From positions 1 through 23,118 of the IMG/VR virus record IMGVR_UViG_3300040801_003220: 23,118 bases of DNA. One strand, given 5' to 3'. The position numbers were made by a program, and so were the translations under genes. Below the pieces are notes generated by a model. That model saw only the letters and a list, made by a program, of their open reading frames with translations, was not told the DNA's origin and searched no databases. This DNA comes from a virus. The stretch's first letter is position 1; each line of letters starts with the position of its first letter. Of the stretch, positions 601 through 20,619 are shown piece by piece.

Positions 601-1905
601 ATGACTAATTTGACCAGCTGCCAAGAACAGGCAGCAAGCAAGTTTGCCGGGTGGCTGATCAATCCTGATGAACGTGAATTTGTTCTTACTGGACCTGCCG
701 GGACTGGTAAAACATTTCTAGTTCAGCAGCTAATTAAAGAGGCCCGAAACATTCATGATTTCCACGCTCTCGTGGACGAAGAATGGGCAAAATACCACAA
801 GAGTCTTCATATTGATTTTTGTGCTACTACTCACAAAGCTGCTTCAGTTCTTTCCGAGTCTCTCAATACTGAAGTCCATACTATTAACGCCTACACTGGC
901 ATCGTTCCTCGTTACTCTAAAAAGACTCGGGATATGCGACTGCAAGTGCCTAAGGGTTATCTTAATACCCGCAAAAACACTTACCACACCCATCTGCTAA
1001 TTGTTGATGAATCTTCAATGATTGCTAAAGAATTTTATACGAAGTTCTTTAGCAAATGGCTCCTGCACAGTCCTGACACAAAAGTTCTTTGGATAGGCGA
1101 CAAGCATCAGCTTCCCCCTGTGAAAGAAAAGATGTGTGTCATCTTTGAAGATGATATTCCTCAGGCCGAGCTGAAACAGGTTGTACGCCAATCTCAGAGC
1201 TCACAGCTATCTCAGGTCGTCCAAACCCTTCGGACAGGCGTAGAGGAGCCTGAGAAGCTTCTGGGGGATATGCCTGATGGTAGTGATGGTTCTGTAGTCT
1301 TTCACAAAGATCTTAAGTCTTTTCTTGCAGAGGTAGAAAATACTTGGCCTGACTACGATTCCGATCCTGATGCAAAAATTCTTGCGTGGACGAATGCTCG
1401 AGTAGGCGAGTTTGCTTCTTATCTCCGTAAGTTCTGGGGAGCACCTGAGCACTTTGAAGCAGGTGAGACTGTATGGGTTAACTCTGCAATCTTGGACAGC
1501 AGCTTCAAGATTAAATGCATGGGTTCCCAGCCTGTCAAAATCTTGGACAGTGAAATAAAGACAGAAGAAGATACTTTAGGCCGTCGTTACTTGGTCATGT
1601 ATGACCGCTTTGGTGAAGCACACACAGATTGGTTTTTCATGCCTGATTCTCAGGATGACAAGAAAGCCACAATCGCAAGGCTTTACCAAGAAAAGCAATA
1701 TGACATGGCTTCTAAAGTGAAATTCACATGGGCTGACTTTCGTCAGAACCAGTCTATGACTGTTCACAAGTCTCAGGGCTCTACTTACGAAAAAGTGTTT
1801 GTAGATGCTTCCAACCTTCGGCGTTCTTCTGATCTCAGAAAGCTGCAATACGTAGCTGCTTCTCGTGCATCGAAAGAGCTTCATATTCTTGGAGAGTTCC
1901 AATGA
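601..1905 (+). CDS. Dda-like SF1 DNA helicase
   Basis: At 434 residues it is the size of T4 Dda (about 440). Seen in order: Walker A GPAGTGKT at residues 31-38; Walker B VDESSM with D136-E137; motif III GDKHQLPPV with D167 and Q170; a late segment with TVHKSQGSTYEKVFVD; and a terminal AASRA motif. This order defines superfamily 1B (RecD/Pif1/Dda) 5'-3' helicases. By family, such proteins unwind DNA at replication starts and help strand invasion; that role is inferred here. The start has AAGGAGA seven bases upstream. The stop overlaps the next gene by ATGA. Confidence 0.93.
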   Translation: MTNLTSCQEQAASKFAGWLINPDEREFVLTGPAGTGKTFLVQQLIKEARNIHDFHALVDEEWAKYHKSLHIDFCATTHKAASVLSESLNTEVHTINAYTGIVPRYSKKTRDMRLQVPKGYLNTRKNTYHTHLLIVDESSMIAKEFYTKFFSKWLLHSPDTKVLWIGDKHQLPPVKEKMCVIFEDDIPQAELKQVVRQSQSSQLSQVVQTLRTGVEEPEKLLGDMPDGSDGSVVFHKDLKSFLAEVENTWPDYDSDPDAKILAWTNARVGEFASYLRKFWGAPEHFEAGETVWVNSAILDSSFKIKCMGSQPVKILDSEIKTEEDTLGRRYLVMYDRFGEAHTDWFFMPDSQDDKKATIARLYQEKQYDMASKVKFTWADFRQNQSMTVHKSQGSTYEKVFVDASNLRRSSDLRKLQYVAASRASKELHILGEFQ

Positions 1906-2405
1906 ACCAACACGAACTTAACGTTATGGCAGATTACGTTTATGGTTCTTCTATCAAGTCTGCTAGACGGAACTTAATTGAATGGGCTAGACAAGCTGGA
2001 TCATATCCCGTTTCTTCCTCAATACTGGACTATCAATGTTTCGGTGTTGGGGGAGTTGAGGTTCCAGATCTTTATTTTGATCCTCACTGGGTGGTCGATC
2101 CTGACCACCCTGCTTTTGATCAAATTTATTCTGAAGCCAAAGTAGCAGCCGACCTTATACGACACAAAGAAGGTTATAAAATTTTTCTCTCTTATTTGTA
2201 TGACTTGGGAGTCCACTATACAAAATTAAAAGAGATTATTGGTAAAGAACTTGTGCCTTCGAACGTAATGCTTAAGAGCTTTATGAGATCTCCAATTAAT
2301 TGGACCCCAAACCAAGAAGAAGCCTTGAACACTTACCTTAAACATGCTTCAGAAATTGTAAAACGGGCAAAAGACCAGCTATTTCTGAGATTGCTCGACG
2401 AATAA
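1902..2405 (+). CDS. Unknown protein, 167 aa, between helicase and polymerase
   Basis: It starts inside the helicase stop (ATGA, 1902-1905) with GGAGAG upstream and ends ten bases before the polymerase start. The N-terminal half has a Pro/Asp/His-rich stretch (around residues 54-70); the C-terminal half looks helical and basic. I see no P-loop, metal ligand set or membrane segment. The tight overlap suggests it is made in step with the helicase and could be a replication accessory factor, but this rests on position only. Confidence 0.8.
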   Translation: MNQHELNVMADYVYGSSIKSARRNLIEWARQAGSYPVSSSILDYQCFGVGGVEVPDLYFDPHWVVDPDHPAFDQIYSEAKVAADLIRHKEGYKIFLSYLYDLGVHYTKLKEIIGKELVPSNVMLKSFMRSPINWTPNQEEALNTYLKHASEIVKRAKDQLFLRLLDE

Positions 2406-2415
2406 AGGACTCGAC

Positions 2416-4971
2416 ATGTTAGACTCATTTGAACTTGAGCCAGGGAATAAATCCCTGGCTATTTTTATTTCTCCTAGAGATAAGCATACGGTACGCGAAG
2501 TTGTTCAATCAATCGGTATCAAACTGGAGAAAGTTCAGGTTTTTTGTCTTCAGTACGAAGAAAAAAATAAGGCTCCTGTAAAACGGGTCATTAAGCCTTA
2601 CATTGATCAAGTCACACCAATTATACAGGCTATGGGTATCACCACTGCTGTTGTTCTTGACGGTAACTACTTCAAAACAATGGCCAAGGTTCGCAAAGCA
2701 GATGCATATCTTGCAACTGCTTGTGAAGGTGTCTGGGAAGGCGTAAAAATTTTTTACTACCCAAGTCCTTTTCGGGCAGTTTTCGACCAATCTGTATCTG
2801 AGAAGATAGAACTTGCTGCTCGAGCCATTGAAGATCATCTTACTGGTGGTGTTGGGTTGTTTGGCACTTTTCCTAAACATCATACCCAAATCAGAGGTCT
2901 TGACGTGTCAAGACAGTTCAAGCTTCTGTATCGGCACAAAATTCTCACTTGTGATATTGAAACTCGAGGGCTTCAACCTGAAAAAGGTTGGATTATTACT
3001 CTTGGCTTTGGTGTAGATGAGCAAAACGCTTACACAGGCCCTATCCAAAACAACGAATTTCGGAAAAACGTCAAAGACTTTTTTGAAGAAGGCGGTCGTA
3101 CTTTTATTTGGCACAATGGTTCCTACGATGTTAAATGGCTTATTCGACATCTTTGGATGGAAAATAGTTACGACATTGAGGGAATGGTTCGTGGTCTTGA
3201 AGTTTTCTTCGATCTTAACAAGTACGAAGACACAAAACTTCTTGCTTACTTGGCTACTAACTCATGTTCAGGTAATTCTCTTAGTCTGAAAGATTTGGCA
3301 TTTGAGTTTGCTGGCAACTACGCCCATGAACAAGTTGCTGATTTAAGCAATGTTCCTCTAACAGAAATTCTTGAGTACAACGCGAAAGACGTAGCTGCCA
3401 CATGGTGGGTTTACAAAAAGTACCGAGAAGAAGTACGTAAGACTCAGGAGTCTGTTTATCAGGAAGTTTTTATTCCTTCTATGAAAACCATCACTCAGAT
3501 GGAGCTTGTTGGCTTGCCTCTCAATAAAGGGCAAGTTATCGCAACTTCTTCAGAGCTCAAAGATATTGAAGACGATTTGCTTCGTCGTATTGCCGGACAT
3601 CCTCTTACCCAAGAACTTAACTGGATGCTTCGCAATAAGCACACCGACAAGCGTAACTCTGAGCTCAAGAAAAAAAGAGTGGTTGCTGAAGATTTCATGG
3701 ACATGGAGTTTAATCCTGGCTCTCCTTTACAACTGCAAATGTTGCTCCACGATCTCATGGGGCTCGAAGTTCTTCAGAGAACTGCCACTAAGCAGCCTGC
3801 AACGGACGCTAAGACGCTAAAAGGCCATATCAATACTCTGGCAAGGGTAGAGGGTAAAGAGGCCGAGAAAGAGCTTCTAGGGCTTATTTTGAATTGGTCT
3901 GAGGTATCCAAGATAACAAGCACTTTTCTCAAAGCGTTTAAAGAATACGCAGCTGATAGAGATGGATGGCAATTTCTCCCAGGCAACTTCAACATGGGCG
4001 GAACTAAATCAGGCCGTCAATCCAGTTCAGATCCCAACCTGCAGAATCTCCCCAGTACGGGAACTCAGTATGCCAAACACATCAAGATGTGTATTTCTGC
4101 ACCCCGCTGGGCATCAGACGATTCTAATGGATGGATTTTTCTGGGAGCTGACTATCTGAGTCTTGAAGATAGAATCTCTGCTTTGCAAACAAAAGATCCA
4201 AACAAACTAGCTGTTTATACAGATGGTTACGATGGTCATTCTTTGCGGGCTTACAGCTACTTCAAGGAACAGATGCCTGACATCGATCCAAACAGTGTCG
4301 ATAGCATTAACTCAATTGCTCAGAAGTATTCGCATCTTAGACAAGACGGCAAAATGCCTACATTTGCTTTGACGTACTTGGGTACTTGGATGACGCTTGT
4401 AAAGAACGGAGGTTTTACTGAAGAAGAAGCCAAGCATATTGAGAAACGCTATCACGAGCTTTATCGAGTAGCTGACGAATGGGCCCATGAGCAAATGAGG
4501 CTTGCCCACGAAAGAGGGTATGCCGAATTGGCATTTGGCTTACGCCTGAGAACTCCGGCTCTTGTGGATGTTATTTGGGATGCTCAAGACACGTGGCCCA
4601 AAGAAGCGTACGCTGAACTTAAGACAGCTACTAACGCTCTTGGACAGTCCTACGGTCTACTAAACACACACACAGCTAATCTATTCATGCAACGGGTGTG
4701 GGCAAGTGAGTACCGCTATTCTGTTCTTCCTTGTGCTCATATCCATGACGCTCAGTATTATCTTGTCAGGAACAATCTCCAAACTCTTAAATGGGTAAAT
4801 GACAATTTGATTGAGTGCATGGAATGGAATGAGCTTCCAGAAATTCAGCACCCGCAAGTGAAACTTCGGGCTGAGTTGGATGTTTTCTACCCCACTTGGG
4901 CTAATCCAATTACTTTGCCTAATCGAATCTCTGCTCAGGAGATTTCTAACATACTTAAGGAATCATTATGA
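2416..4971 (+). CDS. Family A DNA polymerase with 3'-5' exonuclease
   Basis: 851 residues. The proofreading domain is visible as exo I DIET (D180), exo II NGSYD (D238) and exo III YNAKD (Y321, D325). The polymerase has motif A DYLSLEDR (D579), motif B R642-x3-K646-x3-F-x3-Y-G-like (the O helix, with Phe at the site that selects against dideoxynucleotides in Pol I) and motif C HDAQ (D778). The residue after the motif C Asp is Ala779 rather than the usual Glu. The N-terminal 170 residues match no domain I recognise; there is no obvious 5' nuclease. The start at 2416 has AAAGGA eight bases upstream. This is the main replicative polymerase of the phage. A terminator-like hairpin sits in codons 8-15. 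Confidence 0.96.
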   Translation: MLDSFELEPGNKSLAIFISPRDKHTVREVVQSIGIKLEKVQVFCLQYEEKNKAPVKRVIKPYIDQVTPIIQAMGITTAVVLDGNYFKTMAKVRKADAYLATACEGVWEGVKIFYYPSPFRAVFDQSVSEKIELAARAIEDHLTGGVGLFGTFPKHHTQIRGLDVSRQFKLLYRHKILTCDIETRGLQPEKGWIITLGFGVDEQNAYTGPIQNNEFRKNVKDFFEEGGRTFIWHNGSYDVKWLIRHLWMENSYDIEGMVRGLEVFFDLNKYEDTKLLAYLATNSCSGNSLSLKDLAFEFAGNYAHEQVADLSNVPLTEILEYNAKDVAATWWVYKKYREEVRKTQESVYQEVFIPSMKTITQMELVGLPLNKGQVIATSSELKDIEDDLLRRIAGHPLTQELNWMLRNKHTDKRNSELKKKRVVAEDFMDMEFNPGSPLQLQMLLHDLMGLEVLQRTATKQPATDAKTLKGHINTLARVEGKEAEKELLGLILNWSEVSKITSTFLKAFKEYAADRDGWQFLPGNFNMGGTKSGRQSSSDPNLQNLPSTGTQYAKHIKMCISAPRWASDDSNGWIFLGADYLSLEDRISALQTKDPNKLAVYTDGYDGHSLRAYSYFKEQMPDIDPNSVDSINSIAQKYSHLRQDGKMPTFALTYLGTWMTLVKNGGFTEEEAKHIEKRYHELYRVADEWAHEQMRLAHERGYAELAFGLRLRTPALVDVIWDAQDTWPKEAYAELKTATNALGQSYGLLNTHTANLFMQRVWASEYRYSVLPCAHIHDAQYYLVRNNLQTLKWVNDNLIECMEWNELPEIQHPQVKLRAELDVFYPTWANPITLPNRISAQEISNILKESL
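2438..2470 (+). terminator. Terminator-like hairpin inside the 5' end of the polymerase gene
   Basis: AGCCAGGGA (2438-2446) pairs perfectly with TCCCTGGCT (2452-2460) around a five-base ATAAA loop, and ATTTTTATTT follows. The shape is that of a rho-independent terminator, but it lies within codons 8-15 of the polymerase. The upstream start codon is well supported by its ribosome site. It may act as an attenuator that translating ribosomes override. It could also be chance; its function is unproven. Confidence 0.5.
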
Positions 4972-5177
4972 AACTTACAAAAGGTTGGTTGTGTCTCTCC
5001 CTGACAGCAGATCAGGGAGAATTACTTTCTTATTACATGCAAAAGATGCTAGATAGCAACGGAGTTGCTAACCCTGAATGGGTTCAGTACGTACGGGATG
5101 CAGCTAAATCTTGGTCTGATACTAAACGCAAGCAAGACAAACAACGGAGAGAATATGAGTTACACAAACAAGCATGA
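4968..5177 (+). CDS. Small unknown protein, 69 aa
   Basis: It begins at the ATGA overlap with the polymerase stop, with TTAAGGAATC upstream as ribosome site. The N-terminal half is mixed; the last 25 residues are strongly basic and glutamine-rich, probably helical. It overlaps the following nuclease start by 23 bases in another frame. No domain is recognised. Its place between polymerase and nuclease suggests a replication-linked role, but nothing in the sequence shows it. Confidence 0.65.
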   Translation: MKLTKGWLCLSLTADQGELLSYYMQKMLDSNGVANPEWVQYVRDAAKSWSDTKRKQDKQRREYELHKQA

Positions 5178-6117
5178 CATTCCACTACCCCTCGCAATTT
5201 GGTTGGCTACTGACAATTACGATTACGATTCCCGTGAAAACAGTGTTTCTGCTACAACTTTGCTGAATCCAATCAAATCAACAATTTTGTCAAAGCGTGT
5301 CGAATACGGTGCTCCTACCGACATCATGGATTTGGTGCCTGCCCGTTTGGGGAGCGCCATCCATGATTCAGTAGAAATGTCTATACGAACTAATTATTTG
5401 GACGCCATGGCAAATCTGGATATCCCTAAAAAAGTTATCGATACTGTTCAGATTGACCCTCATCATGTTGATCTTGAGTTCAAATACGATATTTCACTTG
5501 AACAACGTCACGAAAAAGAAATTGATGGGTTTGTTGTCACTGGTAAATTTGACATTGTTGAAGCAGGCCGAGTCAAAGACATCAAAACTACCAAAACCTA
5601 CAACTGGATCAAAGGCGGTAACGACGACAAATACATGAAACAAGGAAGTATTTATCGTTGGCTTGCTCCACATCTTATTACTGATGACAAAATGGATGTA
5701 CTTATGCTCTTCACGGATTGGAATCCGTTGAAGGCTATTGCTTCCAAAGACTACCCAAAGAATCCGATTATGACTCGAACTCTCGATCTGATGTCAATTG
5801 ACGAGACACAAAGTTGGATTGAGAGTAGACTGGACCTGCTCCGCAGGTTCTGGGATTGTGATCAATCCGAAATCCCTGAATGTACCCCTGAAGAACTCTG
5901 GCAGGAAGATACGACATACGCTTGGTACAAAGACCCCAGTAAACTTACGAGGTCAACCAAAAATTTCGATTCTTATGCAGAAGCCCAAGCTCATAGCAAA
6001 GGCGTAGGGATTATTGTGGAGCGCCCCGGTTCAGTTAAATTCTGCAACTACTGTAATGCAAGCTCTATTTGCTTACAGGCAGAGCGATACCGGGAACAAG
6101 GACTATTAAAGGACTAA
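5155..6117 (+). CDS. PD-(D/E)XK nuclease, RecB/Cas4-like exonuclease
   Basis: 320 residues from the ATG at 5155, chosen over an in-frame ATG at 5065 because CGGAGAGA lies just upstream and the longer form would run through all of the small upstream gene. Motifs in order: GSAIH (H70), GKFD (D133), D142-I-K144 followed by Thr-Thr, and Q163-x3-Y167. This is the core of the RecB/lambda-exonuclease/Cas4 fold. A C-terminal cysteine group, C297-x2-C300-x5-C306, plus an earlier Cys near 251, could hold an iron-sulfur cluster as in Cas4 and AddB-type nucleases. The likely role is DNA end resection for recombination, with the Sak4-like and SSB-like proteins downstream. Confidence 0.88.
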   Translation: MSYTNKHDIPLPLAIWLATDNYDYDSRENSVSATTLLNPIKSTILSKRVEYGAPTDIMDLVPARLGSAIHDSVEMSIRTNYLDAMANLDIPKKVIDTVQIDPHHVDLEFKYDISLEQRHEKEIDGFVVTGKFDIVEAGRVKDIKTTKTYNWIKGGNDDKYMKQGSIYRWLAPHLITDDKMDVLMLFTDWNPLKAIASKDYPKNPIMTRTLDLMSIDETQSWIESRLDLLRRFWDCDQSEIPECTPEELWQEDTTYAWYKDPSKLTRSTKNFDSYAEAQAHSKGVGIIVERPGSVKFCNYCNASSICLQAERYREQGLLKD

Positions 6118-6140
6118 AAATCTAACCTAGAGGACTAAAA

Positions 6141-8288
6141 GTGAGCAAATATCAAAACCTCCCGTTCAATGAGCGGATGGAGGAAGTGGTAGCTATTCTC
6201 CAAAAAAGGACTCAAAACATGGACCCGGTATTCTTCCGGCTCATCGTTGCCTATTTCTTTTCCAAGGTAGCGTCCATGATGCGAGTCAACGTGCAGATTG
6301 CTGATAGCCAGGTTCTTCCTGTCAATATGTACGTAATTAATTTGGCACCTTCTGGCTCTGGTAAAGGTCATTCAATCAACATTATTGAAGACAATATCAT
6401 TGCTCCTTTCCGAACTACCTTTATGAACGAAGTGTTCATCAAGAAGGCTGAGCAAAACATTGCCCGTATTGCTAAACGTCGGGCAACTCGCAATGAGACT
6501 GTTCCTGAAGATGAACTTGCAGCAGCAATGCGAGAATTTGAAGACCTGGGTGAACTTCCCTTTTCTTTCGACTCAGCTACTGGACCAGCACTTAAGCAGA
6601 TGAGAACTAAGCTCCTCATGGCAGGTGCTGGCTCCATGAACCTCGAGATTGATGAAATCGGTTCCAACCTTCTGGGTAATATGGAACCGTTGAACATGTA
6701 TCTCGAATTGTTCGATGCTGGCAAAATTAAGCCTAAGCTTATCAAGAACACAAACGAGAACCGACGTTCTGAGGACTTGGTTGGCATTACACCAGCTAAT
6801 CTTTGCATGTTTGGTACTCCGCCTAAGCTTCTTGATGGTGGTAAGACCGAGCAAGAGTTCGATGGCTTTCTTGAAACAGGCTATGCTCGTCGTTGTTTCT
6901 TTGGCTTCTCCCGCCGAAGAGCAACCCAGGCTAAGCAAACTGCTCAGGATCTTTACGACATCTACAACGATCCAAAGAGCTCTAGCAAACTTCAGGTGCT
7001 GGGTGCTCATATTGAGCGACTGGCAAAAGTCTCTGGCTTTGGTCGAACCATGACCATGCCTAAAGACGTGTCACTGGCTTTGTTCGAATACCGTCTGTGG
7101 TGCCAAGAGCAAGCTGATGAAATGCCTGAGCACTTCGAGGTACGGAAAGCCGAGATGGCTCACCGTTACTTTAAAGTTGCCAAGCTGGCTGCTGTTTACT
7201 CCTACATTGATGGCATGTCAGAAGTCACTATGGATAGTCTTGAGAACGCCATTGCCATGTCTGAAATGTCAGGACAAGCTTTTGAGCAGATTCTGCATCG
7301 TGAACGTCCTCACGCAAAGCTTGCTCAGTACATTGCATCTAATCCAGGCGCATTGACTGAAGCTGATCTCATCGAAGATTTGCCTTATTACAAAGGCAGC
7401 AAACAGCATTTGCAACAGATGATGACTTACGCCGTGGCACATGGCTACCGTGAAGGCATTTACATCAAAGAGGAGGTGATCGACGACATCAAGTTCTATT
7501 CTGGGGAAATGGTTCCTGAAACTGATACAGATAGAATCCTTGTGGCTTACTCTACTGACATTGCTCAGGGGTATGACTACAAGCGAATCAAGTTTGATCA
7601 GATTCACAAGCTAACCCAAGCTCCCGGAAGGCACTGGATTACTCATGCCGTACGTGGTGGTCACCGACGCGAAGAAAATGTCGTAGAAGGCTGTAATCTG
7701 GTTGTTCTTGACATCGATGACAGTGTGTCAATTGACATGGCTAAATCGCTGCTCAAGAACTACCGTTTCCACCTTTACACGACCAAGCGCCATACTGCTC
7801 AAAATCATCGATTCAGAATTGTGATGCCTTTGTCTCATGAAGTATCTTTGGATGCTTCTGACTTCAAGCAATTCATGAACAATATCTTTGATTGGCTTCC
7901 TTTTGAAGTGGACCGTCAAACAGGCCAAAGAGCACGTAAGTGGCTGTCACACAAAGGAAATTACTGGTATAATGAGGGTGATCTGTTACCAGCACTCCAC
8001 TTCGTACCTAACACCAAGAAAGCAGAACAACAACGAGCTCGAATCAATGAGCAAACTAACCTGTCTGCACTGGAACGGTGGTACGTAAATAACGCTGACA
8101 TCAAGGGTCGGAACAATGTTCTGATGAAGTATGCCTATGCTCTCGTGGACGCAAAGAAAACGCTTCCCGAGATCCAGGATCATGTACTGAAACTGAACCG
8201 TAAGTTTCCTGATCCTCTTGATGAAGCAGAAGTGCTGTCCACGGTCATGGTGACAGCCAGTACTGAACTCTCTAAACGAGGAAATTAA
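6141..8288 (+). CDS. P-loop ATPase fused to archaeo-eukaryotic-type primase
   Basis: 715 residues with a GTG start at 6141, preceded by GAGGA. The N-terminal half has Walker A APSGSGKGHS (K75) and a Walker B-like LEIDEIG (D171-E172), resembling DUF3987-type phage helicase/ATPase domains. The C-terminal half has LDIDD (D524, D526), then a basic segment with H551 and an HRFRIVMPL stretch (R557, R559), the signature arrangement of AEP primases (metal aspartates, then His and Arg). The last 60 residues (RNNVLMKYAYAL...) fit a PriCT-type helical domain. It would supply primers and unwinding for the family-A polymerase. The order ATPase-primase is the reverse of many PrimPol-helicase fusions. Confidence 0.85.
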   Translation: MSKYQNLPFNERMEEVVAILQKRTQNMDPVFFRLIVAYFFSKVASMMRVNVQIADSQVLPVNMYVINLAPSGSGKGHSINIIEDNIIAPFRTTFMNEVFIKKAEQNIARIAKRRATRNETVPEDELAAAMREFEDLGELPFSFDSATGPALKQMRTKLLMAGAGSMNLEIDEIGSNLLGNMEPLNMYLELFDAGKIKPKLIKNTNENRRSEDLVGITPANLCMFGTPPKLLDGGKTEQEFDGFLETGYARRCFFGFSRRRATQAKQTAQDLYDIYNDPKSSSKLQVLGAHIERLAKVSGFGRTMTMPKDVSLALFEYRLWCQEQADEMPEHFEVRKAEMAHRYFKVAKLAAVYSYIDGMSEVTMDSLENAIAMSEMSGQAFEQILHRERPHAKLAQYIASNPGALTEADLIEDLPYYKGSKQHLQQMMTYAVAHGYREGIYIKEEVIDDIKFYSGEMVPETDTDRILVAYSTDIAQGYDYKRIKFDQIHKLTQAPGRHWITHAVRGGHRREENVVEGCNLVVLDIDDSVSIDMAKSLLKNYRFHLYTTKRHTAQNHRFRIVMPLSHEVSLDASDFKQFMNNIFDWLPFEVDRQTGQRARKWLSHKGNYWYNEGDLLPALHFVPNTKKAEQQRARINEQTNLSALERWYVNNADIKGRNNVLMKYAYALVDAKKTLPEIQDHVLKLNRKFPDPLDEAEVLSTVMVTASTELSKRGN

Positions 8289-9014
8289 ATGAGCAACCGT
8301 AATATCGTTCTGATTTCCGGTAAATCCGCATCTGGCAAAACTGCCAGTTTGCGGGATCTGGAAAACCAAGATGGTGTGTTGTATCTGAACTGCGAGTCAA
8401 ATAAGGAACTTCCTTTTCCCTCTAAGTTTCGGAAAACCTCCATCACCGATCCGCTTCACATTTTCTCCTATATGGAGAAGGCTGAGAAGTCAGAAAACAT
8501 TCATACCATTGTGATCGATACGATTACGTACATGATGGATATGTATGAGTCCCAGCATGTACTCACCGCTGCCAACACAATGAAAGCATGGGGTGAGTAT
8601 GCACAGTTCTTTAAAAAACTCATGCAACAGTATGTTGCTAAGTCTACAAAGAACGTTGTCATGATTGGACATACTTCTGACGTTCTGAACGAAGGTGAAA
8701 TGATTACCGAGACTCTTGTCAAGGTAAAAGGCTCCCTGATGAATCAGGGTATCGAGTCTTACTTCAACAATGTCATCTCTGCCAAGAAAGTTCCGCTTAA
8801 CAAGTTGGACGGTTACGAGAATGACTTGCTGAACATTACCCCTCGTGATGAAGCGGTAGGTTTCAAATATGTTTACCAGACCATGTTGACTAAAGACACG
8901 GTAAACGAACGTATCCGTGGTCCCATGCTGATGTGGGACGACAGCGAAACCTTTATCGATAACAATCTTCAGTATGTGCTTGAGCGTCTGCACAAGTATT
9001 ACGAAGAAGACTAA
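8289..9014 (+). CDS. Sak4-like RecA-fold ATPase (single-strand annealing/recombination)
   Basis: 241 residues, starting directly after the primase stop with GAGGAAA upstream. Walker A GKSASGKT is at residues 11-18; the segment VLYLNCESNKELPF (about 30-43) is typical of Sak4/AAA_24 phage proteins; Walker B IHTIVID ends at D77; a GHT motif near residue 128 fits the sensor position. Sak4 proteins are RAD51-related core ATPases that act with a phage SSB, and an SSB-like gene follows. It probably drives strand annealing during recombination-dependent replication. Confidence 0.88.
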   Translation: MSNRNIVLISGKSASGKTASLRDLENQDGVLYLNCESNKELPFPSKFRKTSITDPLHIFSYMEKAEKSENIHTIVIDTITYMMDMYESQHVLTAANTMKAWGEYAQFFKKLMQQYVAKSTKNVVMIGHTSDVLNEGEMITETLVKVKGSLMNQGIESYFNNVISAKKVPLNKLDGYENDLLNITPRDEAVGFKYVYQTMLTKDTVNERIRGPMLMWDDSETFIDNNLQYVLERLHKYYEED

Positions 9015-9020
9015 TCTTCT

Positions 9021-9033
9021 GCGGCTCCGCCGC
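9021..9033 (+). terminator. Short GC hairpin after the Sak4-like gene
   Basis: GCGGC, three-base loop TCC, GCCGC, followed by TTCTCTGATTTATT. The stem is strong but the T tract is broken, so it may be a weak terminator or a transcript-processing/stability hairpin that lowers read-through into the SSB-like gene. Confidence 0.4.
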
Positions 9034-9065
9034 TTCTCTGATTTATTCACTAATAGGAGAGACTT

Positions 9066-9824
9066 ATGAGTCTTGACAATTTGAATCTTCCGTCCGATGT
9101 GGCTGAAGAAAATACTGACACCCTTCCTGGTACGGGCAGCTACCTACTGGACACGGGTGTGTACGACATGATCTGTAAACTGGCATACAAAAGCGAAAGC
9201 CGTGGTGGAGCTACTGCCATCAACTTCCGCTTTGAAACGCCTGATGGTTCCAAGAGCCACCGTGAAACAATCTACGTTACTTCTGGTCGAGCCAAAGGTC
9301 AGAAGCCCACGTACACTGATCGTAAGACGGGTGAAGAGCGTCCTCTTCCAGGCTTTACTGCAGCCAATGAAATCTCACTGGCACTGACGGGCAAGAAGCT
9401 GGGCCAGCTTCAAACGGAAGAAAAGACTGTCAAGCTGTGGAATTACGATGCTGGCGAAGAAGTCCCCACTCCGGGAACAGAAGTCATCATGGAAATGGTT
9501 GGCAAGCCCTGTAAACTGGGCATCATTCTGAAGCGTGAAAACAAAAACGTGAACAACGGTACTCAAGATGCTCCTAAGTGGGAGCCGGGTCCGGACATGC
9601 GTGAGTTCAATGAAATTAACAAAGCATTCAATGCTGATGGTCTGACCTCTACTGAAGTCAAGGCTGGTGAAGGCAATGGTGAGTTTCTCGAACGCTGGCA
9701 GGCCCGCTTCCCGTCAGATTACGTTGACGAAAAGAACTGGAACCCTGCCCTTGCTGAACAGGCTACTGCAGCTTCAGAACCGGCACTTCCTACTCCGGCT
9801 GAAGATGACGACCTGTTTGCATGA
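9066..9824 (+). CDS. SSB-like phage single-stranded DNA-binding protein
   Basis: 252 residues with TAGGAGAG upstream. It lies directly between a Sak4-like ATPase and a RuvC-like resolvase, the usual place of phage SSBs of this class. The first 150 residues look beta-rich with charged loops, consistent with an OB fold. A linker of Ala/Pro/Glu leads to an acidic tip ending EDDDLFA, which imitates the partner-binding tail of bacterial SSB (acidic residues then a Phe). The fold itself is inferred, not visible as a motif. Its last codons overlap the next start by ATGA. Confidence 0.75.
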   Translation: MSLDNLNLPSDVAEENTDTLPGTGSYLLDTGVYDMICKLAYKSESRGGATAINFRFETPDGSKSHRETIYVTSGRAKGQKPTYTDRKTGEERPLPGFTAANEISLALTGKKLGQLQTEEKTVKLWNYDAGEEVPTPGTEVIMEMVGKPCKLGIILKRENKNVNNGTQDAPKWEPGPDMREFNEINKAFNADGLTSTEVKAGEGNGEFLERWQARFPSDYVDEKNWNPALAEQATAASEPALPTPAEDDDLFA

Positions 9825-10303
9825 ACATCGTTGCAATTGATCCAGGAAAAACTGGAGCAATCTGTGTGCTAAAAGAAGAGGGGCCTGTGTTTTATCAGGC
9901 CCCTTTTTCTATGGAGTCTTTTCAAAAAGCATTGCAGTTTCTGAGTGCTGAAACATGCCATTTTAGTTATTTTGTAATTGAAGATGTACATTCTCTTTAT
10001 GGAATGTCTGCAAAAAGTAACTTTCAATTTGGCCGAAACTTAGGCTTTTGTGAAGCTCTTTTAGCTTATTTTTCTACAAAAATTCATTATCTACAGCCTA
10101 AAAAATGGCAACAGTACGTAGAAATTAAGTTTCCTAAAGGTTCTAAAACTGCAGATAAAAAGCGGATTACCTACGAGAGAGCTATTGGCCTTTATCCTGA
10201 AGCTGAGCTACATGGACCTAAAGGCGGTCTGCTTGACGGTAGGTGCGATGCCCTTATGATTGCTCACGCTTTCAAAATCTATCTGGAGAATTCAAATGTT
10301 TGA
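9821..10303 (+). CDS. RuvC-like Holliday junction resolvase
   Basis: 160 residues, close to bacterial RuvC. The RNase H-fold catalytic set is visible: D7 in IVAIDPGKTGA, E54 in FVIED, and D139/D143 in LDGRCDALMIAHA. A basic middle segment (about residues 94-118) is suited to junction DNA. It would resolve branched intermediates before packaging. It starts within the SSB-like stop (ATGA, 9821-9824). A terminator-like hairpin covers codons 20-28. Base use becomes more AT-rich from here on compared with the SSB-like gene. Confidence 0.9.
   Translation: MNIVAIDPGKTGAICVLKEEGPVFYQAPFSMESFQKALQFLSAETCHFSYFVIEDVHSLYGMSAKSNFQFGRNLGFCEALLAYFSTKIHYLQPKKWQQYVEIKFPKGSKTADKKRITYERAIGLYPEAELHGPKGGLLDGRCDALMIAHAFKIYLENSNV
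9879..9909 (+). terminator. Terminator-like hairpin inside the resolvase gene
   Basis: AGGGGCCTG (9879-9887) pairs perfectly with CAGGCCCCT (9896-9904) around an eight-base loop, and TTTTTC follows. It has every mark of a rho-independent terminator but sits in codons 20-28 of an intact frame. It may end part of the transcription from the strongly expressed SSB-like gene, with ribosomes reducing its effect. Confidence 0.55.
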
Positions 10304-14879: not shown

Positions 14880-15021
14880 TCCCCCCTACAGGCAGGAGTA
14901 CGCTCCCTCCTCAGTAACCATGTTGTTCCGTGTGGTGCCTGGTCAACGGAACACTAATATGAAAGTACTTATGGCTGAGCAATGGGGCTAGATTGATTGC
15001 TTTACATAGGAGAAAACCCAA
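14880..15021 (+). other. Noncoding gap with inverted repeat
   Basis: TGTTCCGT (14924-14931) and ACGGAACA (14946-14953) form an eight-pair stem with a 14-base loop, and GGAG-TACG-CTCC lies just before it (14896-14907). No T tract follows, so this is not a typical terminator. A 23-codon frame (14920-14991) overlaps the repeat but lacks a ribosome site. Nothing else is seen. Confidence 0.35.
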
Positions 15022-15192
15022 ATGGTAACTGTTCGTAAATACGCTGCTTACGCTTTTTTCTGGATTGGGCATGCTTTCTCTAGAATTGGAGATGCTTCTT
15101 TTTGGCTTTATCAAAAGTCAATGTTGTTTTCTACTAGACTCCAGGGCAAAGGTGAAGGCCCTTGGGATAGTGTAGAAACTGAAAAAGAATAA
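15022..15192 (+). CDS. Small unknown protein, 56 aa
   Basis: The ATG at 15022 has ATAGGAGAAAA upstream. The protein is aromatic and moderately hydrophobic in residues 8-36 (YAFFWIG, SFWLYQ), interrupted by charged residues, so it is more likely a membrane-surface helix than a full span. The C-terminus is acidic (SVETEKE). It ends just before the tmRNA gene; its frame may contain the tmRNA promoter. Confidence 0.6.
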   Translation: MVTVRKYAAYAFFWIGHAFSRIGDASFWLYQKSMLFSTRLQGKGEGPWDSVETEKE

Positions 15193-15273
15193 TCGAATTC
15201 GTTGGCAAGTATGACTGTATGACGTGAACTGAAAACATTGTGGACGCGGGTTCGATTCCCGCCACCTCCACCA

Positions 15274-15349
15274 AAAGCACTTTCTGAGTGGAATGCGATA
15301 GCTACAAAATTCTGCGAGATACTCTAGCTAAGTAGAAAGTGCTTCTGAT
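15274..15349 (+). other. Intervening segment of the permuted tmRNA precursor
   Basis: It lies between the encoded CCA and the 5' G of the coding piece. AAGCACTTTCT (15275-15285) is exactly complementary to AGAAAGTGCTT (15334-15344), so the precursor folds with the two acceptor strands brought together. In two-piece tmRNAs this segment is cut away, leaving two RNAs held by base pairing; that processing is inferred here. Confidence 0.85.
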
Positions 15350-15433
15350 GGGGGTGTCTAGGTTTCGACATGGTGTGGAAGGAACATTGACAGTCCGAGG
15401 TGGTGCCTCGTTAAACAGCCAAAACCAATAGTC

Positions 15434-15481
15434 GCTAATGATGACTACTACGAGAGTAACGTACTGCCCATGGCAGCATGA
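15434..15481 (+). other. tmRNA tag reading frame
   Basis: The resume codon GCT at 15434 follows AATAGTC, as in E. coli tmRNA. The frame reads ANDDYYESNVLPMAA and stops at TGA 15479-15481. It starts AND like most tags and ends in Ala-Ala, as needed for ClpXP-type recognition. At 15 residues it is longer than the E. coli tag. A P5-like hairpin, CTGCC-CAT-GGCAG (15464-15476), precedes the stop. Confidence 0.9.
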
Positions 15482-15514
15482 CTCTAGGGGATCGTCGTCC
15501 CTTTTACCAAAGAC

Positions 15515-15545
15515 AAAGCCCCTCCTTGTGAGGGGCTTTTTAATT
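15515..15545 (+). terminator. Terminator of the tmRNA gene
   Basis: AAAGCCCCTC (15515-15524), five-base loop, GAGGGGCTTT (15530-15539), then a T-rich run to 15547. A classic rho-independent terminator. The same stem arms occur again after the metalloprotease gene. Confidence 0.92.
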
Positions 15546-15582
15546 TTTATGGCAACGATACCAACCAAAAGAGGAAAGACTC

Positions 15583-16192: not shown

Positions 16193-16492
16193 TTATTTAT
16201 CTATCATTTCTACTAAGATAGATCTCTCCATTCTCCTGCCACCGACAGTTACGGCTGTACACACTAGCCGGAATCTCTGTCCACTTTTTACATTTCCCTC
16301 TACCAAAACCGTTGCCGCTGTTGCAGTAAGCGTTTCAGACAAAATGTTTAGACCAGTGTTTCTACTGTCTATTCGCCAGGTAGCGTCGGAAATGACATCA
16401 GCAGGCTCCGCAGCATTCAGCTGTGCAGTAAAATCAATTGTAAAATCCAGCGTTTCTTGCGGGTCCATCGTTGTTTTGAATGTGTAACTCAT
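16193..16492 (-). CDS. Fibre-tail adaptor-like protein, 99 aa
   Basis: The N-terminal part (LDFTIDFTAQL, then ISDATWRIDS) and the Thr/Ala-rich strands ending in RSILVEMIDK match the general look of small phage fibre-tail adaptor proteins with a BACON/Ig-like beta fold. There is no signal or membrane segment. It is last of three - strand genes, linked by an ATGA overlap at 16489-16492. It probably joins a fibre or spike to the tail; this rests on pattern and neighbourhood. Confidence 0.65.
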   Translation of the reverse strand: MSYTFKTTMDPQETLDFTIDFTAQLNAAEPADVISDATWRIDSRNTGLNILSETLTATAATVLVEGNVKSGQRFRLVCTAVTVGGRRMERSILVEMIDK

Positions 16493-16791
16493 GCTTTAAA
16501 CGTCCTTTCCGAGTTTTCTGTAGTAACAACAAAAATTCTAGGTTCTGCTTCCACTGCAAAATATCTTCCTCCATCGATTGCCCGTTGAAGTCCTATAGGA
16601 TCATCAACGTCAGGAATTAGAGGAGGTAATACAGCTTCGTCTACGTACACAACAAATAAAGCTCCTTGTGAATTGGCTACAGCTTCTCCTTCATGAAAGA
16701 AAGGAAAGAAATCACTGTTAGCCAAGTTTTTAGGACAAGGCAATAATCTCGAGTCCTCAGAGCTTCCTAGAACGTACGTAAAAAAGCTCAT
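16489..16791 (-). CDS. Unknown tail-operon protein, 100 aa
   Basis: The middle gene of the - strand operon, overlapping both neighbours by ATGA. Soluble and mixed, with a Pro/Asp-rich loop (LPPLIPDVDDPIG) at about residues 56-68. No recognised domain. Its strict coupling between a fibre-like and an adaptor-like gene points to a virion or assembly role. Confidence 0.7.
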   Translation of the reverse strand: MSFFTYVLGSSEDSRLLPCPKNLANSDFFPFFHEGEAVANSQGALFVVYVDEAVLPPLIPDVDDPIGLQRAIDGGRYFAVEAEPRIFVVTTENSERTFKA

Positions 16792-18050
16792 GGCGTAGCT
16801 TGTCTTACATTAGCAGTCAGGTATTTCACTGCATCAACAACACCAGTAGTGACTTTTAGCATAAAACCATCACCCGGAGCCAATGTAGTAACGGTGCCTG
16901 TTCGTTTCCAACTGATAGGCTCGTCTGTTTCGATGTCACTAAAACCTGTAAGGTCTGTTGCGTAGGACGCAACACTTTCACCAGGAACAAACCCACTAGC
17001 TGCAAATGTCCAACCTGTGGTCGTGTGCCTAATCAGTTCCATGTCGAAGCCAGCGTCAGCTGCACCTCCCAAACCTGTGACATCTAGCATGTCGATAACG
17101 GTAGTGCCATTAGCAAAGTTATCTGCTTTCACTAGACCGTAGTTAAAAGTAGCAGAAGATGAAGCACCATTGCTTGTCAGGGTATAAGTAACTGTACCTA
17201 CCCAACGCTTGGTGGTTTCCATGTAATCATTGGCCACACGGCCTCCAGGAGCTCCGCTGTACAGCTGTTCGCTGTCAGCAGGGGTAAGGGTGCCTGTATC
17301 ATCGATAGACGTTCCAGAGACCGTCAGCGTGATCTCAGTGCCTACTGTGCTCCAAGCTCCCAGTACTGCAAAAGCCTTGGCACCATAAGCTACTGTAGCT
17401 GACCCAATAGTGACCGTTCCTGCTTCTACTAACGAGGCTTCTGTATCAGCAAATTCATAGAAGCCTCCAAGATAAGTGGTTCCTACAGCCGACTGGTGAT
17501 AAGAAAATGTTGAAACAATTGAAGCAGCCAGCTCCGCTGGCGTTCCGCTAATATCGCTGTAATCTAGCACCACATTGCCAGTCTTTCCGTTTACGCTGTT
17601 GACAGTTCTTTGGCGAATAGGCCAAAAATCAGTTAAGTCTTGGACTGTAGTGGTTGCTTGCTTTGACAACAAAAAGTCGCCTGCTTGAAAATCAACTCCA
17701 TCAAATGTTCCATTAACTTCAATTTTGTAGAGATCGAAAGCTCTGGTACTAAGAGGTGATGTGCTACTTTGAGGGTTCCAAGCATCAGGGAGTACTTGGA
17801 TACGCAAAGCGTCAAACTGCAAAGAGATGTTTACATCATCAAGATTAAGCGGAGCACTTAACGTAAGAGAATCAAGCTTAGCCCCATCTGCATGAAGATC
17901 TCTGCCCGCAATGGTATAACCTTGTCCATCAGGCATTTCGATACTGGCAGCACACACCAAATCTTTTGGCAAAAGATAGCGGTCAGCCCCTGTAGGAGCT
18001 TGGATTCTAGGTAGGCTTTCGTTCAAAGCCATGATTTCAAAATCAGCCAT
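16788..18050 (-). CDS. Tail fibre or minor tail protein, 420 aa
   Basis: Beta-rich, Thr/Ser/Gly-rich and poor in Cys, as in phage fibres. Around residue 151 it has VNSVNGKTGNVVLDYSDI, the VNGKTG motif common in tail-fibre and spike proteins where a trimeric shaft begins. The N-terminal 130 residues form a separate domain, perhaps the tail-attachment part; the C-terminal 250 form a repeating beta domain that likely faces the host. No chaperone domain or catalytic residues are seen. It is first in the operon; the start is preceded by a weak GGAA site, and its promoter must lie in the 65-base divergent gap 18051-18115. Confidence 0.78.
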   Translation of the reverse strand: MADFEIMALNESLPRIQAPTGADRYLLPKDLVCAASIEMPDGQGYTIAGRDLHADGAKLDSLTLSAPLNLDDVNISLQFDALRIQVLPDAWNPQSSTSPLSTRAFDLYKIEVNGTFDGVDFQAGDFLLSKQATTTVQDLTDFWPIRQRTVNSVNGKTGNVVLDYSDISGTPAELAASIVSTFSYHQSAVGTTYLGGFYEFADTEASLVEAGTVTIGSATVAYGAKAFAVLGAWSTVGTEITLTVSGTSIDDTGTLTPADSEQLYSGAPGGRVANDYMETTKRWVGTVTYTLTSNGASSSATFNYGLVKADNFANGTTVIDMLDVTGLGGAADAGFDMELIRHTTTGWTFAASGFVPGESVASYATDLTGFSDIETDEPISWKRTGTVTTLAPGDGFMLKVTTGVVDAVKYLTANVRQATP

Positions 18051-18830: not shown

Positions 18831-19045
18831 TGAGCGAATCAAAACCTATCACTGTTACAGGTGAATTGGTGTATGTCGTGGATACTGGTTATTGGGTACT
18901 TGATGATGATGTCCAAGGAACTCCTATTGCTTGGACTGAAGATCCTGAAACGGCACCACTTGGAATGCAAGTCACTGTTACTCTTCAACCAGAGCGCAGA
19001 GATGACGGTTTTTTTAATGTAATACACGTACAGGTAGTGCAATGA
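18830..19045 (+). CDS. Small beta-rich protein, 71 aa
   Basis: It starts at a TAATG junction with TTGGAGAA upstream. Almost wholly strand-like (ITVTGELVYVVD, MQVTVTLQPERR, NVIHVQVVQ), compatible with a small OB-like or beta-barrel fold. No motif. It overlaps the metalloprotease start by ATGA, so the two are likely made together; it could be an inhibitor or partner of the protease, but that is a guess from position. Confidence 0.7.
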   Translation: MSESKPITVTGELVYVVDTGYWVLDDDVQGTPIAWTEDPETAPLGMQVTVTLQPERRDDGFFNVIHVQVVQ

Positions 19046-20619
19046 AAGGTGACATTATTGTTGGATTTTTTGGTCGGAGGCTTGACCAAAAGAGTTGTGA
19101 CGCTTACGCACGGCAAGCACAAAACTGGTGGAACCAGGTTTCTCAGGGTTACCTGAACATGACTGCTATTGGTGTAGCCATGGATGAAGATTTTCACGAT
19201 CTTCCAGTACCTGCTCCATATTTTGGATTAAATGGTATGCGAGAAATGTGGAGTCGTCTTGATTACGATTTCACTCCTGATTACTGGCACATGCTTGGTG
19301 GTTATTTTCCAGGCCAATGTGGCCAAGCTTTGCTTAGAGGCAGAGTTGGTAGAACCAACACTGATATGGGTTGTGGTGTTGATACCATGCTTCACGAAAA
19401 AGGTCATAACTTCGGGCTGGGTCATGGGAACATTTGGTATCCAAAGACTGAAACAACCAAAGAATATGCTGACAAGAATGTAATTATGGGCTCAGGCAAA
19501 CGTGTTTGGTCTTTGAATGCTGCCCAAGCTTATTACCTTGGGTGGTACGATCCTCTTGAAGTAAACATGATTAAGGCAACTACCCGTTTTAACTGTGTAC
19601 CTTGGGATCTGCCTGCACGTAACCGTTTTAATGATGAGCATGCATTTAACATTATTGGTGGTACTCAAATTCCTGGAGTACAAGGACGTGTTTTCATTTG
19701 TAATAATATGACAAAAGGCTACCCTTACAAATTAGAAAACCAAGGTGTCTTTATTGTCAGTGCTTACGGCTCATCTAATCGGGTTGACGGTATGTTGACT
19801 GAAGGCGAGTCTTTCAAGATTACTAACGGTCCTGAAATTTTTGTCCATTCAATTGATGAAAATGATGTAGCCGATGTTGCTGTTGTTTGGAATGATGATC
19901 CAATGCCTGATCGGGAAATTCCTGTAAAAGATTTGAGGGCATTTCCTACAGATGATTTGAAATTTGTTGAGCCAAAGCATTCTGGTGCCTATTACAACCC
20001 CAACATGGTTGGACAAGGTTTTGATCTCTATTGCGGCAATAATAAAACTATCCTTTATTGGTACACTTTTGAACAGTTCAAAGATTGGCCTCGAGTAGAA
20101 ACTCGACCTGTTTGGTTTATAGCCGACGTAACCAATGGTATTGGCGAACTCCGTTCTTATAACGGCGACCCAAGAAACCCCACAATTGAGGGATTGGTTC
20201 GTGTTGGAATGGAAAATGGCAATCTTGTTGTGGATTATGACACCCAGGACTGGGGTCGAGGCCACATGAATTGTCAACGTATTGCTAAGCTTGCTTCACC
20301 TAAAGATGGTATTTACTACGATCCAAAAAAAGATGGTAAAGGTTGTACTCTTCGATTTGATTTTGAAAACAATCGTATGTATGGGTGGTGGTATCGTTAC
20401 GAAAATAACAATATCCCTGTCTGGTATTATCTTGACGGAAAAAAAGATCTTACAGGTGTTTACCCACTGACTGTTTACAAAGCAAAAGGAACTTTTAACA
20501 AGTTCAACTATGGTGAAGAGTTCCTTTTAGATGAGACAAGAGATGTTTTTTTCAATCCTTTGACTAACGAGCTTAAAGGCTTTGGCGAAACACTTAACCT
20601 GGTCAAACTAGGCACCTAA
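19042..20619 (+). CDS. Metzincin-type zinc metalloprotease with C-terminal aromatic repeats
   Basis: 525 residues. HEKGHNFGLGH at 118-128 is the full HExxHxxGxxH zinc motif with the catalytic Glu119, and VIMGSG with M149 can be the Met-turn, so the active-site set looks complete. The N-terminus has no signal peptide. Residues 314-361 (SGAYYNP...GQGF...RPVWF) and 422-466 (DGIYYDP...GKGC...IPVWYY) are two copies of a Gly/Trp/Tyr repeat seen in secreted proteobacterial proteins; it may bind surfaces or sugars. Possible roles are tail-borne host-surface proteolysis or action on host proteins after infection. It overlaps the upstream beta-rich gene by ATGA and ends at a terminator. Confidence 0.85.
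   Translation: MKGDIIVGFFGRRLDQKSCDAYARQAQNWWNQVSQGYLNMTAIGVAMDEDFHDLPVPAPYFGLNGMREMWSRLDYDFTPDYWHMLGGYFPGQCGQALLRGRVGRTNTDMGCGVDTMLHEKGHNFGLGHGNIWYPKTETTKEYADKNVIMGSGKRVWSLNAAQAYYLGWYDPLEVNMIKATTRFNCVPWDLPARNRFNDEHAFNIIGGTQIPGVQGRVFICNNMTKGYPYKLENQGVFIVSAYGSSNRVDGMLTEGESFKITNGPEIFVHSIDENDVADVAVVWNDDPMPDREIPVKDLRAFPTDDLKFVEPKHSGAYYNPNMVGQGFDLYCGNNKTILYWYTFEQFKDWPRVETRPVWFIADVTNGIGELRSYNGDPRNPTIEGLVRVGMENGNLVVDYDTQDWGRGHMNCQRIAKLASPKDGIYYDPKKDGKGCTLRFDFENNRMYGWWYRYENNNIPVWYYLDGKKDLTGVYPLTVYKAKGTFNKFNYGEEFLLDETRDVFFNPLTNELKGFGETLNLVKLGT

Follow-up and report, generated by a model that had tools for sequence, protein, structure and literature searches.

Does a fragment of an N4-like phage genome carry a genuine circularly permuted tmRNA gene, and how would such an RNA act in an infected cell? 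The fragment, here called the window, is the entire IMG/VR virus record IMGVR_UViG_3300040801_003220, which is 23,118 bases long and represents part of a genome. On its plus strand, positions 15196–15545 contain a circularly permuted tmRNA (ssrA) gene with all of its parts, as identified by Rfam models, ARAGORN, and direct reading of the sequence. A preliminary description of this DNA had proposed a permuted tmRNA at this position; every element that it named was located, and RF04321, RF01850, and ARAGORN agree with the call. We estimate a probability of about 85% that the gene is a genuine permuted tmRNA carried by an N4-like phage and acting in host-assisted trans-translation.

Organization and predicted fold of the gene

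In searches with all Rfam models, the full RF04321 model (tmRNA_permuted, cut-off 47 bits) matches positions 15213–15481 of the plus strand with 121.9 bits and an E-value of 9.6e-24, and RF01850 (beta_tmRNA) matches positions 15166–15506 with 95.2 bits, which is near its cut-off of 84, and an E-value of 4.9e-28. ARAGORN reports a tmRNA* at 15181–15572 with the tag ANDDYYESNVLPMAA. The preliminary description had named the lack of a covariance-model hit as grounds for abandoning its proposal; since RF04321 and RF01850 both match, those grounds do not arise, and ARAGORN, which it had suggested running in permuted mode, returned the permuted form. A standard one-piece tmRNA was rejected because the order of the parts is permuted and because of the tmRNA* assignment.

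All parts of the gene are on the plus strand, and the T arm and 3′ acceptor strand are encoded ahead of the 5′ acceptor strand and the tag, which is the permuted order. The acceptor piece (15196–15273, 5′ end approximate) contains the 5′ strand of P2, the T arm with the stem and loop GCGGG-TTCGATT-CCCGC ending at 15262, the 3′ acceptor strand CACCTCC (15263–15269), A73 (15270), and an encoded CCA (15271–15273). It is followed by an intervening sequence of 76 nt (15274–15349), which is predicted to be removed. The coding piece (15350–15505, 3′ end approximate) begins with the 5′ acceptor strand GGGGGTG (15350–15356) and continues with the TLD motif GGTTTCGAC (15361–15369), the 3′ strand of P2, pseudoknot PK1, the tag frame, and a 3′ hairpin (15486–15503). 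An intrinsic terminator (15515–15545), composed of a 10-bp stem at 15515–15539 and a T-rich tail, ends the gene.

The acceptor stem is formed from the two pieces with seven of seven positions paired, and together with G3-U70 and A73 it provides the alanine identity set. P2 is formed by GACTGT (15213–15218) and ACAGTC (15390–15395). Stem 1 of PK1 pairs CGAGG (15396–15400) with CCTCG (15406–15410), and stem 2 pairs TGGT (15401–15404) with ACCA (15424–15427). The ends of the intervening sequence can form an 11-bp hairpin, AAGCACTTTCT (15275–15285) with AGAAAGTGCTT (15334–15344), which is also present in the minimum-free-energy fold. This hairpin was not named in the preliminary description. The minimum free energy of the segment 15196–15510 corresponds to a z-score of −2.57, and none of the shuffled sequences was equally stable.

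The resume codon GCT (15434–15436), immediately preceded by AATAGTC, opens the tag frame (15434–15481) predicted by ARAGORN, which is closed by the stop codon TGA (15479–15481). The encoded tag, ANDDYYESNVLPMAA, has 15 amino acids, begins with AND..., and has an end of the [L/I/M]AA type. The preliminary description had considered that host proteins might receive a distinct tag; a special function of the tag is not supported, as its start and the type of its end are those of most other phage tags. Among 95 viral tags, 85 have LAA, IAA, or MAA at the end. The tags predicted by ARAGORN for the loci L031, L061, L078, L042, and L039 are unusually long, with 26–33 amino acids, for example ATNRDSAKSAKVLAFPAMPEALPMAA.

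A scan for sigma-70-like promoters near the tmRNA found none. N4-like phages use their own polymerases for transcription. An inverted repeat GTTCCGT...ACGGAAC, spotted by eye, lies at 14927–14954 (plus strand) between a metallophosphoesterase gene and the tmRNA.

Phage background and related genes

The tmRNA gene is positioned downstream of a replication module (601–10303, plus strand) encoding a Dda-like helicase, a PolA-type polymerase, an exonuclease, a primase (phrog_2135), a Sak4-like protein, SSB, and a Holliday junction resolvase. These phage replication genes, together with the origin of the window from a virus record, bear out the earlier proposal that the tmRNA is phage-encoded. The primase matches 470 phage records, all with less than 60% identity. 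The best match is from Vibrio phage K479, in which the genes for helicase through SSB follow one another as in the window and adjoin a virion RNA polymerase. The order helicase, polymerase, exonuclease, primase, Sak4-like protein, and SSB is what we take to be the N4-like (Schitoviridae) layout; judged by its genes, the replication module of the window is Schitoviridae-like. No open reading frame as large as that of the giant virion RNA polymerase was found within the 23-kb fragment, which is part of a genome. An open reading frame at 16193–16492 (minus strand) matches the podophage fiber-tail adaptor gp77; it is one of three opposite-strand frames at 16193–18050 (minus strand), which probably belong to a tail or late-gene block. 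Further downstream, positions 19042–20619 (plus strand) encode a 525-amino-acid protein with a match to Peptidase_M11 (gametolysin; E-value 6.8e-07) and the motif HEKGHNFGLGH.

Two related viral contigs carry a permuted tmRNA past the same replication genes: L041, with a primase 56% identical to that of the window (tblastx) and the tag ANDDYYEPLRLVA, and L032, with a primase 47% identical (tblastx) and the tag ANDNSYAPVAMAA. Acceptor pair 5 is C-G in both relatives, whereas it is G-C in the window. Among the older models, L032 scores best with the alpha model, whereas the window passes the beta model. Neither L003, a 54-kb fragment, nor Vibrio phage K479 yielded a permuted tmRNA, and the authors of the phi50-12 study found no tmRNA in that phage (PMC9525291). 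The gene is thus sporadic within this phage group and, because it is absent from some relatives, not essential to it.

A maximum-likelihood tree was calculated from the tRNA-like and PK1 parts, which are short sequences, with a viral sample chosen by pattern, rooting on alpha genes, and no cyanobacterial genes. The window gene pairs with that of L041 (support 86) and then with L032 (support 77). The three belong to a clade of 108 permuted genes (support 86) from phages and bacteria, the latter of beta-type and second-copy genes. The clade lies apart from alphaproteobacterial genes and from the sampled one-piece genes, one of which joins at the next node (support 93). In this tree without cyanobacterial genes, the window gene is in a clade that phage and bacterial beta genes share, and its nearest neighbors are phage genes.

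Permuted tmRNA genes in other viruses and in bacteria

The preliminary description knew of no well-described permuted tmRNA in a phage. This does not hold: a two-piece permuted ssrA of the methylophage Melnitz has been published, together with a survey that yielded 53 two-piece calls among the tmRNAs of 18,146 phage genomes (PMC9004378). The tmRNA database paper from which RF04321 originates includes 79 tmRNAs from phages, all forms taken together (PMC11915505). When IMG/VR was scanned with one DNA pattern for the permuted tRNA-like part, in which acceptor pair 5 was left free on both sides, at least 119 further stretches matched, and almost all of the matches listed contain a permuted tmRNA according to ARAGORN. 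ARAGORN also predicts permuted tmRNAs in several isolates: Stenotrophomonas phages Bhz51 (Menderavirus) and DLP_6, Alcaligenes phage QDWS595 (Schitoviridae), Xanthomonas phages Rb1 and X1, Acinetobacter phage BUCT628, and the acidobacterial phage Tunturi_4. RF04321 confirms six of these genes, X1 being outside the RF04321 search. Among the regions of deposited records that were viewed, the gene is annotated only in that of Bhz51; permuted tmRNAs lack annotation in OK149171.2, PQ569993.1, OQ427096.1, MZ593728.1, KU682439.2, and PP885687.1. The survey indicates that permuted tmRNAs are far more common in phages than annotation suggests. A T-arm match in Mycobacterium phage PegLeg was discarded: it falls at the 3′ end of a tmRNA that is already annotated and fits a one-piece gene, and ARAGORN called no tmRNA there.

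In Tunturiibacter phage Tunturi_4 (L127, PP885687.1), a gene annotated as an RF-1 domain peptide chain release factor, which may be ArfB-like, is directly upstream of the permuted tmRNA (2618–2965 and 2936–3470). Two candidate ribosome-rescue genes thus adjoin in a phage of Acidobacteriota.

Acceptor pair 5 is paired in all 95 distinct viral genes, compared to 65% predicted from base frequencies when kinship is ignored. Because the pair is of several types (AT in 56 genes, GC in 28, CG in 9, and GT in 2), these sequences suggest that pairing of one half with the other is under selection. Within the intervening sequences, the ends pair with their own partners with a mean of −13.6 kcal/mol, compared to −7.1 kcal/mol with foreign ends. 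For P2, cognate and non-cognate pairing were not discriminated across all phages. The E-values of the Rfam matches and the covariation in the 95 viral genes place the window gene far beyond chance, and complete isolate phage genomes show the identical architecture; the probability that the gene is a chance resemblance or an assembly artefact is negligible.

Integration often takes place at ssrA, and the gene could have been left in the phage by imprecise prophage excision as a passive, functionless remnant of a host ssrA. The authors of the Melnitz study mention such a route (PMC9004378). However, no integrase is among the identified genes of the window fragment, the structural parts are all intact, related phages with diverged sequences retain an intact gene, and pairing is maintained across the 95 viral genes, which makes a remnant very improbable.

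Stenotrophomonas chelatiphaga (L135/L145) and two Herbaspirillum genomes (L136/L146 and L138/L147) have a one-piece tmRNA plus a second, permuted one. The permuted tags of the two Herbaspirillum genes end in AYGT, not AA. A pattern combining the encoded CCA with a window-like 5′ piece gave no matches and then four bacterial matches in a genome collection; these numbers are not a census and are low partly because several sampled bacterial beta genes have no encoded CCA and the T loop of alpha genes is different. The second copies and the clade shared by phage and beta genes allow, but do not show, that bacteria acquired permuted tmRNAs from phages. The broader proposal, that phages are the main reservoir of beta-type permuted tmRNA and the source of the permuted genes of some Betaproteobacteria as well as of the second copies in Herbaspirillum and S. 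chelatiphaga, appears doubtful to us. If it were true, the third lineage of two-piece tmRNA would have come from phages.

Proposed function and comparison with known systems

From the sequence, it is reasonable to propose that the RNA would serve ribosome rescue and that the phage would specify the tag. By analogy with known two-piece tmRNAs, host tRNA-processing enzymes would remove the intervening hairpin, and the acceptor stem and P2 would keep the two resulting RNAs joined. Host AlaRS may charge the two-piece tmRNA through G3-U70, and host EF-Tu and SmpB would carry it to stalled ribosomes. SmpB was found neither in the window fragment nor in seven further phage records, among them six genome records with a permuted tmRNA, and therefore the tmRNA would need SmpB of the host. 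Translation would resume at GCU and add Ala-ANDDYYESNVLPMAA, the ...AA end of which suits ClpXP-type proteases. The phage may benefit from a sustained supply of ribosomes and the clearance of truncated proteins during infection.

Instead of rescuing ribosomes for the phage, the RNA could mainly compete with host tmRNA for SmpB or stalled ribosomes, or send host proteins to proteolysis for amino acids. Selective tagging of host proteins has been proposed for Melnitz (PMC9004378), and the tmRNA of phage DS6A, which has no CDS, was reported to inhibit endogenous tmRNA in E. coli (PMC11915505). However, a pure competitor would not need a complete tag frame with a conserved type of end, and we regard this explanation as improbable. 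Most likely, the RNA carries out ordinary trans-translation during infection and adds a tag that is specified by the phage but still has an end of the degradation type.

With the window gene, a group that is known but has received little study gains a clear N4-like example. Because some phages with permuted tmRNAs infect hosts that are expected to have one-piece tmRNA, it can be tested whether host SmpB adapted to one-piece tmRNA functions with the two-piece tmRNA of a phage and whether bacterial permuted tmRNAs were gained from phages.

Melnitz and other aquatic phages (PMC9004378) share with the window a permuted two-piece tmRNA gene. The Melnitz gene is alphaproteobacteria-like and belongs to a myophage of 141 kb, together with a glutamine riboswitch, whereas the window gene is beta-like and belongs to an N4-like phage; Rfam models found no riboswitch in the window. 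Alcaligenes phage vB_Af_QDWS595 is of the same family, Schitoviridae, according to its record taxonomy, and has an unannotated permuted tmRNA scoring 93.8 bits with the beta model. In contrast to the window gene, it encodes the tag ANDNVYAAAA, lies inside a tRNA cluster, and is not a close neighbor of the window gene in the tree. The titles and abstracts found in the literature on tmRNA and Schitoviridae mention no permuted gene. The window gene passes the RF01850 cut-off and shares a tree clade with betaproteobacterial permuted tmRNAs, but its score is 95 bits compared to 280 for a bacterial member. Its CCA is encoded, whereas ACCC or ACCT occupies this position in several of the bacterial genes sampled, and its intervening sequence and tag are longer than those of betaproteobacterial permuted tmRNA. 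The window gene adds to an already published kind and differs from it by the phage group, by a beta-like rather than alpha-like sequence, and by its 15-amino-acid tag.
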